64,000 nucleotides of DNA from NCBI GenBank assembly GCA_011754535.1, contig JAAQVN010000001.1:4154001-4218000 (forward strand). Direction: 5' to 3'. This stretch comes from Enterobacter asburiae. Lineage in GTDB: Bacteria; Pseudomonadota; Gammaproteobacteria; Enterobacterales; Enterobacteriaceae. A model generated the notes under the pieces. That model saw only the letters and a list, made by a program, of their open reading frames with translations. It was not told the DNA's origin and searched no databases. Positions 610-63,650 of the stretch are shown here, piece after piece. The position numbers were made by a program, and so were the translations under genes. Within the stretch, counting starts at the first letter, position 1; each line of letters begins with the position of its first letter.

Positions 610-670
610 GTTTATTCCCTCTCTCTTTGTACTGTGGGCTCCCCAGTAATTTATAAGCAGAAGCAATAAC

Positions 671-1063
671 CTTGTTTCAGAACGAGTGAAGACTTTCAGC
701 GAAGCTCTGATCCGGCTGTAAATCGCTGAGGCGTTTGCCTTCCGGCCGGGGCGAGGCGCATGGATGCGCCGAGAGGGCGGGCTTTACAGGGACGTTACCT
801 CCGCCCGTCCCCGATAAGCCGGAAGGAATAAGCCGAGGGCACCGCGAAGCGGCGATTTACCGCCGGGAGCCCGGGTCGCCAGGGTGGTGGCGACTGAGCC
901 ACCCTGGCACGTTCACAGGTCATGTCGTGACAGAGTAGCAAGGAAGATAAAGTGAACGGAATGACCACCACGGCCGTATATTCCCCTCACCCTAACCCTC
1001 TCCCCGTAGGGGCGAGGGGACTGTTCCGTGCTGCCATAACGTGGTGGGGATCCCTCAGTCATG
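671..1063 (+). repeat. Structured dispersed repeat, copy A (second copy at 63289-63650)
   Basis: About 390 bp is highly similar to 63289-63650, in the same orientation. Four complementary segments are visible. An outer stem joins 738-746 (CCTTCCGGC) with 818-826 (GCCGGAAGG). Inside it lie hairpins 755-770 (GGCGCA/TGCGCC) and 775-806 (GGGCGG/CCGCCC). A separate 10-bp stem joins 878-887 with 899-908. Next come a ribosome-binding-site-like AAGGAAG (940-946), a GTG at 952 and an in-frame ATG at 961, opening a 39-codon frame that soon enters a CCCTCACCC-type palindrome. Copy A carries 30 bases (around 835-864) that copy B lacks. It fills the rpoD-mug gap. No protein of normal size is encoded; longer open frames here are by-products of high GC. 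Confidence 0.85.
983..1020. repeat. CCCTCACCC/CTCTCCC-type intergenic palindrome
   Basis: The segment reads CCCCTCACCCTAACCC, then CTCTCCCC-GTA-GGGGCGAG. Related units occur in at least seven other intergenic gaps of the window. It is the downstream part of repeat copy A. A partial unit (GGGGTGAGGGCATCAGGCCG) lies at 1064-1084. Confidence 0.8.
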
Positions 1064-1091
1064 TGGGGTGAGGGCATCAGGCCGCAGAGGA

Positions 1092-1598
1092 TTACAGCCC
1101 CCGCACCATCAGCGCCTCATCCAGTTCCCGATACGCCTCCACCAGCTTATCCAGCGTCGCCCTGTTGAGCCCGCTCGGGTTCGGCAGCACCCACACCTGC
1201 GTAACGCCAATCATGATGCTCTGCTTGCCCCACTTCGTTCCACGCTGGCTAAACGCCTGCTCGTAGGCCTGCTTGCCGAGGATCGCCAGCGCGGCCGGCT
1301 GGTAGTCTTCAATCTTCTTCACCAGCTCTCGCCCGCCGCTGCGCAGCTCATGCAGGTTTACCTCGCTCGCCTGTACCGTCGGCCGCTCGACCAGCATGGT
1401 AATGCCGCAGCGTGTATCCAGCAGGTGCTGCTCCTCTTCGGGCTTGAGTAATCTGTCGGTAAACCCGGCCTGGTAGATCACCTTCCAGAAGCGATTTCCC
1501 GGATGGGCAAAGTGAAAACCGGTGTGCGCAGAGGACTTTCCTGGGTTGATACCGCAAAACACGACCCGCAGGCCAGGTGCAAGAATATCGTTGATCAT
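1092..1598 (-). CDS. mug: G/U(T) mismatch-specific uracil-DNA glycosylase Mug
   Basis: Mug removes uracil or 3,N4-ethenocytosine from mispairs with G in base-excision repair. The protein has the Mug/TDG signature near its N-terminus, with GINPG (general base and water-positioning residues) and the FAHPGNRFW segment, and the second motif NPSGL near the C-terminus. The length of about 168 residues equals that of E. coli Mug. The start at 1598 is chosen because an ATG there follows GGGAG at a good distance and gives the family N-terminus MxxDILAPGL; a GTG four codons upstream overlaps the Shine-Dalgarno sequence itself. The gene lies between rpoD and ileX as in E. coli, converging on rpoD. Confidence 0.95.
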
Positions 1599-1722: not shown

Positions 1723-1798
1723 GGCCCCTTAGCTCAGTGGTTAGAGCAGGCGACTCATAATCGCTTGGTCGCTGGTTCAAGTCCAGCAGGGGCCACCA
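1723..1798 (+). tRNA. ileX: tRNA-Ile with CAU anticodon (ileX type)
   Basis: The 76-nt cloverleaf has acceptor stem GGCCCCT/AGGGGCC, D-arm AGCTCAGTGGTTAGAGC, anticodon loop CTCATAA (anticodon CAT) and T-loop GGTTCAAGTCC, with an encoded CCA end. The CAU anticodon could suggest methionine, but the body matches the isoleucine isoacceptor whose C34 is converted to lysidine by TilS to read AUA. In E. coli ileX also lies beside mug. The accessory block 1.9-10.8 kb starts just downstream. Confidence 0.95.
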
Positions 1799-26630: not shown

Positions 26631-28259
26631 ATGAGTTACCTTTTAGCGTTAGATGCAGGGACAGGCAGCGTTCGCGCCGTGATTTTCGATTTACAGGGCA
26701 ACCAGATTGCCGTCGGCCAGGCCGAGTGGAAGCACCTGAGCGTGGAGAACGTGCCGGGGTCGATGGAGTTCGACCTCGAAACCAACTGGCAGCTGGCCTG
26801 CCGGTGCATTCATCAGGCGCTGGAGCGTGCGCGCCTGAGCGCGGCGGACATTCAGTCCGTCGCCTGCTGCTCGATGCGCGAAGGGATCGTGCTGTACGAC
26901 CGCAACGGCGAGGCCATCTGGGCCTGCGCCAACGTCGACGCCCGCGCCAGCCGCGAGGTGGCCGAACTCAAAGAGATCCACGATTACCGTTTTGAATCCG
27001 AAGTGTATGACGTCTCAGGGCAAACGCTGGCGCTGAGCGCCATGCCGCGCCTGCTGTGGCTGGCGCACCACCGTCCGGATATTTATCGCAAGGCCGCGAC
27101 TATCACCATGATCAGCGACTGGCTGGCGGCGAAGCTCTCCGGCGAGCTGGCGGTCGACCCGTCTAACGCGGGCACGACGGGCATGCTGGATCTCTTCTCC
27201 CGCGACTGGCGTCCGGCTCTGCTCGACATGGCCGGCCTGCGCGCCGATATCCTCTCCCCGGTGAAAGAGACCGGCACCGTGCTGGGCGCTGTCACCAGAG
27301 AGGCCGCGCAGCAGAGCGGCCTGCGCGAGGGCACCCCGGTGGTGATGGGCGGCGGCGACGTGCAGCTGGGCTGTCTGGGGCTGGGCGTAGTCCGCGCCGG
27401 ACAAACGGCGGTGCTGGGCGGCACCTTCTGGCAGCAGGTGGTGAACCTGCCGCAGGTGCGCACCGACCCCGAGATGAACATCCGCGTGAACCCGCACGTG
27501 ATTCCCGGCATGGCGCAGGCGGAGTCGATCAGCTTCTTTACCGGGCTGACCATGCGCTGGTTCCGCGACGCCTTCTGCGCCGAGGAGAAGCTGATTGCCG
27601 AGCGGATGGGGATGGACACCTATTCCCTGCTGGAAGAGATGGCGAGCCGCGTACCGGCAGGCTCCCACGGGGTGATGCCGATCTTCTCCGACGCGATGCA
27701 TTTCAAGCAGTGGTACCACGCCGCGCCGTCGTTTATCAACCTCTCCATCGACCCGGAAAAGTGCAACAAAGCGACGCTGTTCCGTGCCCTGGAAGAGAAT
27801 GCAGCGATCGTCTCGGCCTGCAACCTGGCGCAGATCTCTCGCTTCTCCGGCGTGACATTTGAGAGCCTGGTGTTTGCAGGCGGCGGTTCCAAAGGCGCCC
27901 TGTGGAGCCAGATCTTAAGCGACGTCACCGGGCTGCCGGTGCGCGTGCCGGAAGTGAAAGAGGCGACGGCGCTCGGCTGCGCGATAGCGGCAGGGGCTGG
28001 CGCGGGGCTGTTTGCGGATATGGCCTCGACGGGCGAACGGCTGGTGAAGTGGAGCCGCGAGTTCACGCCAAACCCGCAGCACCGCGAGCTGTACGACGGC
28101 ATGATGCAGAAATGGCAGGCGGTGTACGCGGACCAGCTTGGGCTGGTGGACAGCGGGCTGACGACGTCGATGTGGCAGGCTCCGGGGTTAGTAAAAACCC
28201 ACACCCCTCACCCTGCCCCTCTCCCCAAAGGGGAGAGGGAAAAAACCAGAGCGAGCTGA
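26631..28259 (+). CDS. lsrK: LsrK, autoinducer-2 kinase, with repeat-derived C-terminal tail
   Basis: The FGGY-family kinase phosphorylates AI-2 (DPD) in the cytosol, trapping it and producing the LsrR inducer. Motifs are [16 protein letters not shown] at the N-terminus, the phosphate loop GGTFWQQV, and [15 protein letters not shown] for adenosine binding. At 542 residues it is about a dozen longer than E. coli LsrK: after SMWQAPGL the frame runs into a CCCTCACCC-type intergenic palindrome, coding the tail [14 protein letters not shown] before stopping. The tail lies outside the fold, so activity is probably kept. Confidence 0.95.
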
Positions 28260-28321
28260 TTCTTTAAGACCGCACCGGACAGTCCCCTCTCCCCTCCGGG
28301 GAGAGGGTTAGGGTGAGGGGC
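28203..28321. repeat. Inverted pair of CCCTCACCC/CTCTCCC palindromes
   Basis: Unit one (28203-28240) reads CCCCTCACCCTGCCC then CTCTCCCC-AAA-GGGGAGAG. Unit two (28282-28321) is in the opposite orientation, ending GGTTAGGGTGAGGGG. The outer arms are complementary, giving a BIME-like structure. The first unit lies inside the lsrK coding end. Confidence 0.85.
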
Positions 28322-28391
28322 ATTATTTGAATCCCATCACAATCACCGCATTCCCCTTTTCCCTTTTACTCCCCGCTGGCTAAATTAGTAA

Positions 28392-59154: not shown

Positions 59155-59533
<379 letters not shown>

Positions 59534-61633: not shown

Positions 61634-63205
61634 ATGGCCGATATTGCAATTAGAGAGGCATCGCCGACGGCGTTTTATATTAAGGTTCACGATACGGATA
61701 ACGTGGCGATTATTGTCAACGACAGTGGCTTAAAAGCAGGCACCCGCTTCCCGGACGGGCTTGAGCTGATTGAGCACATTCCGCAGGGACACAAGGTCGC
61801 GCTGGTCGATATTCCTGCCCACGGTGCAATCGTCCGTTACGGTGAAGTCATAGGCTATGCGGTACGCGCTATCCCGCAGGGTAGCTGGATTGAGGAATCG
61901 CTGGTTGAACTGCCCAAAGCACCGCCGCTGAATACCTTGCCGCTGGCTACCCGCGTTCCTGAACCGCTTCCTCCGCTGGAGGGGTATACCTTCGAAGGCT
62001 ACCGCAACGCGGACGGCAGCGTGGGAACCAAAAACCTGCTCGGCATTACCACCAGCGTGCACTGCGTGGCGGGCGTGGTGGATTACGTAGTGAAAATCAT
62101 TGAGCGCGATCTGCTGCCGAAGTACCCGAACGTCGACGGCGTGGTGGGTCTTAACCACCTGTACGGCTGCGGTGTGGCGATCAACGCGCCAGCGGCGGTC
62201 GTGCCGATCCGTACCATTCACAATATCGCCCTTAACCCGAACTTTGGCGGCGAGGTGATGGTGATTGGTCTCGGGTGTGAAAAATTGCAGCCAGAGCGCC
62301 TGCTGCAGGGCACCGAAGATGTCAAAGCCATCCCGGCTGACGAGGCCAGCATCGTGCGCCTGCAGGACGAACGCCACGTTGGCTTCCGTTCGATGGTCGA
62401 CGATATTCTTCAGGTGGCGGAGCGTCATCTGGACAAACTCAACCGCCGCCAGCGCGAAACGTGCCCGGCATCGGAACTGGTGGTGGGCACTCAGTGTGGC
62501 GGCAGCGATGCCTTCTCTGGCGTGACGGCTAACCCGGCGGTGGGCTATGCGTCCGATCTGCTGGTGCGCTGCGGCGCCACGGTGATGTTCTCCGAAGTCA
62601 CCGAAGTGCGTGACGCCATCCATCTCCTTACGCCGCGCGCCGTTAATGAAGAGGTGGGGAAACGCCTGCTCGAGGAGATGGCCTGGTACGATAGCTATCT
62701 CGATATGGGCAAAACCGACCGCAGCGCCAACCCCTCTCCGGGCAACAAGAAAGGCGGTCTGGCAAACGTGGTGGAAAAAGCCCTCGGTTCGATAGCTAAA
62801 TCCGGCCAGAGCGCGATTGTGGAAGTGCTCTCTCCGGGCCAGCGGCCAACCAGGCGCGGTCTGATCTATGCGGCTACGCCTGCCAGCGATTTTGTTTGCG
62901 GCACCCAGCAGGTGGCGTCCGGCATTACGGTACAGGTCTTTACCACCGGGCGCGGCACGCCGTACGGCCTGATGGCGGTCCCGGTGATCAAGATGGCGAC
63001 CCGCACCGAGCTGGCAAACCGCTGGTATGACTTAATGGATATCAACGCGGGCACCATTGCCACCGGGGAAGAGAGTATTGAAGACGTGGGCTGGAAACTG
63101 TTCCATTTTATTCTGGACGTGGCAAGCGGGCGGAAGAAAACGTTCTCGGATCAATGGGGATTACACAATCAGCTGGCGGTGTTCAACCCGGCACCGGTGA
63201 CGTGA
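61634..63205 (+). CDS. garD: GarD, galactarate dehydratase
   Basis: GarD dehydrates galactarate to 5-keto-4-deoxy-glucarate, the entry step for the GarL-GarR route; the enzyme needs iron. The 523-residue protein has an N-terminal SAF-type domain (about 12-85) and the UxaA-family catalytic domain, with [26 protein letters not shown] and [10 protein letters not shown]. Length and sequence match E. coli GarD. It is paralogous to UxaA at 36150-37637. Divergent from garL. prlF-yhaV, next downstream in E. coli, is absent; repeat copy B occupies the place. Confidence 0.97.
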
Positions 63206-63232: not shown

Positions 63233-63254
63233 CCTCTCTCCCTGTGAGAGAGGG
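63233..63254. repeat. CTCTCCC-type palindrome, short variant
   Basis: CCTCTCTCCC-TGT-GAGAGAGG, just behind garD; may help terminate garD transcripts though no T tract follows. Confidence 0.6.
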
Positions 63255-63288
63255 ATCCCCAGAAATTTCTCAACCCGGAGCGATCAAT

Positions 63289-63650
63289 GTTGCTTCAGGA
63301 AAATGAATGACTTGCAGCGACGCCCTGGTCCGGCTGTAAATCGCTGAGGCGTTTGCCTTCCGGCCGGGGCGAGGCGCAGGGATGCGCCGAGAGGGCGGGC
63401 TTTACAGGGACGTTGCCTCCGCCCGTACCCGACAAGCCGGAAGGAATAAGCCGGGAGCCCGGGTTGCCAGGGTGGTGGCGACTGAGCCACTCTGGCACGT
63501 TCACCGATCATGTCGTAACAGAGTAGCAAGGAACATAAAGTGAACGGAATGACCACCACAGCCGTATGTTCCCCCTCACCCCAGCCCTCTCCCTCAGGGA
63601 GAGGGGGTCGTCCGTGCTGGCATTATTTTGGGGGGAACCCTCAGCCCACA
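63289..63650 (+). repeat. Structured dispersed repeat, copy B (first copy at 671-1063)
   Basis: The same order of elements as copy A is present: outer stem CCTTCCGGC/GCCGGAAGG, hairpin GGCGCA-GGGA-TGCGCC, hairpin GGGCGG/CCGCCC, stem GCCAGGGTGG/CCACTCTGGC (one G-T in place of G-C, which still pairs in RNA), then AAGGAAC, GTG at 63540 and ATG at 63549. The first residues MNGMTTTAV are identical to copy A, then the reading frames diverge because of an extra base. 30 bases present in copy A are missing. The 3' end is a CCCTCACCC-type palindrome (63571-63606). It fills the gap between garD and agaR. Confidence 0.85.
63571..63606. repeat. CCCTCACCC/CTCTCCC-type palindrome within repeat copy B
   Basis: CCCCCTCACCCCAGCCC then CTCTCCC-TCA-GGGAGAG. 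It is positioned as in copy A, directly after the conserved start codon region. Confidence 0.8.

Follow-up and report, generated by a model that had tools for sequence, protein, structure and literature searches.

The window, namely the whole stretch of 64,000 nucleotides that was analysed, corresponded to C1:4154001-4218000 of a 4.96-Mb genome and carried the same repeat twice, with copy 1 lying downstream of rpoD and copy 2 downstream of a 523-codon ORF ending at 63205 (rpoD, mug, and the other window genes are presumed identities, recognised from the sequence). The two copies were 89% identical between 672-840 and 63290-63458 and 94% identical between 862-986 and 63450-63574, and their comparison confirmed the original prediction of two dispersed copies sharing the same order of stems. 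The outer 9-bp stem formed by CCTTCCGGC (738) and GCCGGAAGG (818) was found as the same pair at 63356 and 63436, and it enclosed, as had been proposed, two hairpins: hairpin 1, whose stem was kept while its loop varied (TGGA in copy 1, GGGA in copy 2), and a hairpin carrying ACAGGGACGT, a motif found twice in the window against 0.23 expected. The 10-bp stem GCCAGGGTGG/CCACCCTGGC changed to CCACTCTGGC in copy 2, a G-C to G-U replacement that kept the pairing. The extent of 360-390 bp formerly given to the repeat (671-1063 and 63289-63650) was corrected to about 632-1058 and 63248-63644, ends included (Table 1).

Copy 1 gave a fold with z = -3.19, equalled by 2 of 200 shuffles, and copy 2 one with z = -1.85, equalled by 7 of 200. 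A deletion of 30 nt has cost copy 2 its P5 hairpin together with the 3′ side of the helix TAAATCGC/GCGATTTA, and the covariance model R1 scored copy 1 well above copy 2. No sigma-70-like promoter was found by a consensus scan of 500-1150, which covers the surroundings of copy 1 only, and the single terminator-like site in that interval was that of rpoD, at 580-607. The window also contained ordinary RNAs, namely RNase P RNA at 59157-59533 (-) and a tRNA gene at 1723-1795 (+), as well as more REP/BIME copies of the insertion-target kind at 28204-28323, 30514, 34610, 36091, 44697, and 48592.

Table 1. Features of the two copies in the window, and loci of the related insertion sequence.
Feature	Position	Strand	Basis or remark
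Left half of interrupted REP palindrome, eroded CCCTCTCCCTGTGGG, upstream of copy 1	617..631	+	REP uninterrupted at this site in several relatives
5′ terminal inverted repeat of MITE, copy 1, CTGTGGGCTCCCC, eroded CTGAGGRATCCCC	632..644	+	2 mismatches
5′ domain of RNA module, copy 1, TRIP1-type	712..871	+	Model R1 full length, 144.4 bits
9-bp stem CCTTCCGGC/GCCGGAAGG around two hairpins	738..826	+	Sequence and fold
Hairpin 1, copy 1, loop A-TGGA-T, CsrA-like	755..770	+	Sequence and model alignment
Hairpin 2, copy 1, ACAGGGACGT, CsrA-like	786..795	+	Motif count and model alignment
3′ hairpin GCCAGGGTGG/CCACCCTGGC, copy 1	878..908	+	Covariation and fold
Last stem CGTTCAC/GTGAACG, holding the proposed GTG start (952)	910..958	+	Covariation
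Internal REP, partly read as spurious peptide	983..1019	+	Repeat family D4 (983-1016), limits widened by eye
3′ terminal inverted repeat of MITE, copy 1, CTGAGGGATCCCCA	1045..1058	-	End search
5′ terminal inverted repeat, copy 2, GAGAGGGATCCCCA	63248..63261	+	2 mismatches
5′ domain of RNA module, copy 2, 30-nt internal deletion	63330..63480	+	Model, 86.7 bits
Hairpin 1, copy 2, loop A-GGGA-T	63373..63388	+	Sequence
Hairpin 2, copy 2, ACAGGGACGT	63404..63413	+	Motif count
3′ terminal inverted repeat, copy 2, CTGAGGGTTCCCCC	63631..63644	-	2 mismatches
Insertion-sequence loci in G408 and G428	L233, L235, L237, L238, L240, L241, L243-L248		

It had also been suggested that both copies carried a small ORF with a conserved start. 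The letters themselves were confirmed, since GTG at 952 and 63540 starts MNGMTTTAV in both copies, but the ORF was rejected, as this GTG forms one side of a stem that covaries, and the reading frame continues into the letters of the REP. GTGAACG pairs with CGTTCAC, and 5 of 28 copies presented one pair as G-C instead of A-U; four of those five (L023, L028, L031, L042) read CGTTCGC/GCGAACG, losing the GTG and keeping the pairing, which indicates that the structure was selected and the ORF was not. On this comparison, the GTG and ATG appear as part of the last stem or its neighbours, and they are not a conserved start.

The RNA fold was evaluated in a sequence-only alignment of 23 copies of the 5′ domain (A1), another of 28 copies of the 3′ domain (A2), and the model-fitted alignments A3 (145 matches from 90 loci, 135 of them distinct) and A4. 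A1 supported a Y-shaped fold made up of an outer helix (CCGGC.GAAAATYG/CRATTTTC..GCCGG), a side hairpin CCGCGAAGCGG, and an irregular arm tipped by two hairpins; changes on both sides were observed in 33 of its 52 pairs, and 91.6% of the cells paired, versus 32-39% when the alignment was slid. In A2, which covers a hairpin and the last stem, 13 of 19 pairs changed on both sides. None of 500 shuffles reached the observed values in A1 and A2, and their slid versions paired in 32-48% of cells. The covariation across many copies on which the original prediction was to be checked was, by these two-sided counts, strong.

A selected RNA stem tolerates G.U and not A.C, whereas a strand-neutral DNA process tolerates both equally. 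The ratio of G.U to A.C cells in A1 was 22 to 2 without two loop-closing pairs and 22 to 13 with them; in A2 it was 13 to 3 without one poorly paired end pair and 15 to 11 with it, this asymmetry alone not being significant by distinct types; and in A3 it was 135 to 32 without the two loop-closing pairs, in which case 29 pairs favoured G.U and 8 favoured A.C, and 137 to 97 with them. As the full counts make clear, this strand test leans on the exclusion of those pairs, and its P values are a guide only because the copies are related. G.U amounted to about 2% of the standard pairs, which is low for RNA. Altogether, comparison of the copies showed, as far as sequence can tell, a fold under selection.

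The loops of the two hairpins look like CsrA docking sites. Among the 135 distinct A3 matches (90 loci), GGA was found in loop 1 of 131, in loop 2 of 122, and in both loops of 119, with a GGA-to-GGA spacing of 26-29 nt in all 119, in a match set that favours GGA loops because both sequence searches and a model derived from copies with GGA were used to gather it. The loops were mostly A-N-GGA-Y, the 5′ strand of hairpin 1 occurred as 40 different sequences, and ACA[AG]GGA was present at hairpin 2 in only 51 of the 135. Outside the family, both loops had GGA in 19 of 29 matches; GGA loops were absent from one distant group (L061, L062, L067, L070, L072, L075) and had been lost in the group of G230 and G347. 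According to a SELEX study (PMC7652899), the CsrA consensus is RUACARGGAUGU, with GGA within the hairpin loop, and most of the selected hairpins had four or fewer contiguous pairs, whereas hairpin 1 of the module was modelled with nine. The genome studied here possesses csrA. Like the CsrA sponges CsrB, CsrC, RsmY, and RsmZ, the module presents paired hairpins with GGA loops; it differs from them in having two such hairpins instead of many, in being dispersed, in the absence of a visible promoter of its own, and in that its binding is a prediction. We infer from these features that the module would bind CsrA.

Eight full or nearly full copies, in addition to partial ones, were found in this genome by blastn and by the covariance model. 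Within the genus, the model had matches in 38 of 40 genomes, with 0 to 22 per genome, so that these genomes would differ in their number of potential CsrA docking sites. In the family, matches were found in at least 89 of 246 genomes (this count and that of 14/274 are both lower bounds, the best few candidates per genome having been scored, with stricter filters over 40 genomes). In other genera, the copies had all or some of a shared core about 250 nt long; identity was roughly 69-80%, a level exceeded by some short pieces. When a window copy was used as blastn query against E. coli, a match was obtained in 5374 of 5426 genomes, and 80% of the query was covered in only 45 of them. A phage origin and a plasmid origin were rejected: there was no match in 50,697 phage records, and 29 of 72,556 plasmid records gave matches, none covering 80% of the query and several belonging to records of chromosome size.

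The K-12 elements TRIP1a (L076) and TRIP1c (L078) matched model R1 with 169.0 and 168.7 bits, respectively, which makes the window family a relative of TRIP1; the partial TRIP1b (L077) gave no R1 match at E up to 1. TRIP1a of K-12 lies antisense to aqpZ. TRIP1 was reportedly described by Rudd (1999). Both families share the same RNA module, and the description of TRIP1 as intergenic, rich in GC, and folding as a double-Y RNA holds for the window family, whose copies in the window's genus differ in bearing IS10-like ends and target duplications. In a survey of TRIP1, Li et al. (2024) predicted this 'double-Y' fold and suggested a non-coding RNA, and the available part of their paper deals with neither a transposition mechanism, nor a CsrA motif, nor relatives outside E. 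coli (PMC10888264). Among the matches listed for TRIP1 and BIME, that paper was the only one bacterial by title.

A further likeness was observed with TwoAYGGAY (Rfam RF01731), which has been predicted to bind CsrA (PMC4333381). In both, two hairpins with AYGGAY-like loops lie side by side and in register, whereas the TRIP1 type has in addition an outer stem, P5, the 3′ hairpin, and the last stem. The corresponding loops were ATGGAT and AGGGAC in copy 1 and AGGGAT and AGGGAC in copy 2, GGA being kept and the second base often being G. The TwoAYGGAY model gave no match to copy 1 at E up to 5 and none across the whole window at the gathering score (43 bits). Among 18 loci scanned, partner elements in L020 and L022 passed this cut-off with 51.4 and 49.2 bits and also matched R1, with 79.7 and 74.8 bits. 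The CA(G/T)GGATG...TACAGGGACGT pattern, which had been likened to intergenic repeats of other gammaproteobacteria, proved to be real and common to elements of other gammaproteobacterial families. A connection between TRIP1, TwoAYGGAY, and CsrA was not found in the literature searched, which includes only a minority of subscription journals.

IS10 itself generates a 9-bp target duplication. In the window's genus, the module was found to sit between ends like CTGAGGRATCCCCAGTAAT and CTGAGGGNTCCCCA, which are similar to the ends of IS10 as read for comparison from plasmid R100. An exact 9-bp target duplication flanked 12 of 30 copies, not all of which are independent insertions, against a mean of 1.62 and a maximum of 7 in shuffled data; these 30 remained from 57 loci after 5 without the core string, 21 without an end pair, and 1 with a repeated flank were removed, and L123, which scored 4/9 with its end match slid by one base and is exact by eye, stands outside the 12. 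Eleven of the 12 exact duplications were REP centres such as CCCTGTGGG, CCCACAGGG, or CCCGGTGGG; the other, at L048, lay outside a REP and belonged, together with L045 and L046, to the copies of this genome with an exact duplication. No intact duplication was present in the window, where 3/9 positions agreed for copy 1 and 4/9 for copy 2 (by eye, outside the 30). The family resembles REP/BIME in its intergenic niche, being inserted in REP and containing REP, and differs in that the sequence and structure of the 250-nt module are not those of a REP.

With the IS10 transposase as query, 4 of the 60 genomes searched within the genus yielded relatives, and this genome (G000) yielded none at E 1e-10. 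An IS4-family insertion sequence of 1279-1280 bp with the same ends as the MITE was present in seven copies in G408 and five in G428; its ends equal those of the MITE over the first 19 and 14 bases, and its transposase matched NF033591 (IS4 family) with 303 bits. All 12 copies lay in the centres of REP palindromes and 9 of them had exact duplications (a tally of 9/14 includes two other insertion sequences, L234 and L236, located outside REPs). In G408, the MITE copies L123, L124, and L125 had identical 158-nt cores at different sites. The ends CTGAGRRATCCCC and the 9-bp duplications are shared with IS10/Tn10 and the IS4 family, whereas the REP-centre targets, the structured-RNA cargo, and a matching transposase about 35% identical to that of IS10 set the element apart. 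The original prediction had offered a structured RNA or a non-autonomous mobile element as alternatives to a plain REP, and the element turned out to be both, given the covariation on one side and, on the other, the ends, duplications, and candidate mobiliser, seen in relatives as well as in copies elsewhere in this genome. By these comparisons, mobility and RNA structure are well supported.

In a few other genomes, IS10-like ends were found on one or both sides of the module (G067, G500, and E. coli ECONIH4), and the modules of G074 had Tn5-like ends; where legible, the sites in these genomes were also in REPs. Neither kind of end was present in most of the 139 matches examined, six loci having been left out beforehand; loose matches to the Tn5 right end (5 mismatches) were noise, and CTTA-type IS10 matches look like chance. 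At L134 and L138 (G400), MITE copies were ended early at their 3′ REP by a shared sequence starting TGTACGGTCCGGGGACATAG, perhaps another insertion sequence.

Forty loci orthologous to the rpoD site were found, and 30 of them were read. Two held the core in the same orientation, one held it in the other orientation (L269, assigned to 'other' by the script but with the core in reverse at G401:C50:988-1146), one had a solo end joined to REP, nine an intact or nearly intact REP, L271 among them differing by a base, and 17 were classed as other. Eight of 11 unpaired end-like sites read by eye in this genome were MITE ends beside REP. Such solo ends could have arisen by loss of the DNA lying between the inner REP and an outer one.

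The neighbouring genes of 36 loci of the genus, according to rough ORF calls, were convergent in 14, tandem with the element in sense in 10, tandem with the element antisense in 10, and divergent in 2. The even orientation in tandem settings is transposon-like and argues against a local function as a sense 3′-UTR, which was rejected. Insertion seems indifferent to orientation and uncommon where the flanking genes diverge.

In many other genera (89 loci), neighbouring modules formed pairs that were divergent in 37 of 51 cases, tandem in 8, and convergent in 6, L026 being left out of this count as the same stretch as L212. The modules of 33 of the 37 divergent pairs were 39-122 bp apart, and the partner, which was the TwoAYGGAY match in two loci, often had a poorer model score. 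A divergent promoter between paired modules was discarded, as no common promoter was evident by eye in 30 spacers. Divergent pairs were seen in L212, L215, L171, L178-L186, L194-L196, L230, and others, with arrays in G011 (L212, L215). In L206 (G464:C1:1789200-1791900), five tandem modules shared a strand within 2.2 kb, and 288 bp separated them at three of the four gaps.

The explanation that we hold to be probable, with some reserve, is that the TRIP1-type RNA is the cargo of a MITE mobilised in trans by an IS4-type transposase, and that its GGA loops bind CsrA and titrate or recruit it. The structured module of about 250 nt would be carried by a non-autonomous MITE of about 400-430 bp which, judging from the comparison, has IS10-like ends, makes 9-bp target duplications, and lies nearly always in REP centres, and which an IS4-family transposase of the kind found in two relatives may move in trans. 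The two GGA loops, 26-29 nt apart, would bind one CsrA dimer, and copies transcribed by read-through or from unknown starts would titrate CsrA as a dispersed sponge; alternatively, the transcribed copies may recruit CsrA to RNA 3′ ends. More tentatively, it is possible that a mobile RNA class present throughout the Gammaproteobacteria, including TRIP1 and TwoAYGGAY, spreads CsrA-titrating hairpin pairs whose copy number tunes Csr, a class which in the window's genus would ride IS4-type transposons aimed at REPs. If true, this would join TRIP1, an E. coli repeat without an explanation, to the orphan Rfam family TwoAYGGAY and to a REP-aiming transposon, and would give a concrete account of REP-site interruption and of the origin of solo ends.

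Some of the same observations could be read in other ways. The very stable fold, the location in REPs, and the scarcity of loci between divergent genes (2 of 36) are also consistent with a REP-like role, in which the fold would shield mRNA 3′ ends or limit read-through in either orientation and GGA would be an incidental tetraloop feature; we regard this as unlikely, since it leaves unexplained why GGA and the 26-29 nt spacing persist while the stems change. Less likely still, the RNA or its single-stranded DNA might serve only the spread of the element itself, as a transposition platform or a recruiter of host factors with no benefit to the host, a notion in keeping with the mobility and orientation-neutrality of the copies, with the association of the module with both IS10-like and Tn5-like ends, and with the divergent pairs of other genera; however, the insertion sequence that shares the ends of the MITE moves although it does not contain the module, and most of the 139 matches examined lack such ends. 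That the repeat is inert DNA, whose stems persist because the copies are recent or because palindromes self-correct, is very improbable: compensatory changes do far outnumber G.U intermediates, as palindrome correction would predict, and the strand asymmetry is weak once loop-closing pairs are counted, but covariation extends across genera and families, G.U exceeds A.C in the stems, and the unpaired letters of the loops are conserved.

Two minor observations concerned other loci. The Aggregatibacter sRNA AaHKsRNA22 of Rfam (RF02902), on which nothing was found in the same literature, matched L020 at 1091-1186 (-) with 40.4 bits, for a cut-off of 39.8, and this match overlapped the 3′ part of the partner element. 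In distant gammaproteobacterial matches, the module was followed, by eye, by a long hairpin such as GGTTACTTTTCTTTG...CAAAGAAAAGTAACTCG, and hairpins of this kind were seen in L052, L053, L055, L057, L059, L061, L064, L067, L068, L072, and L075.
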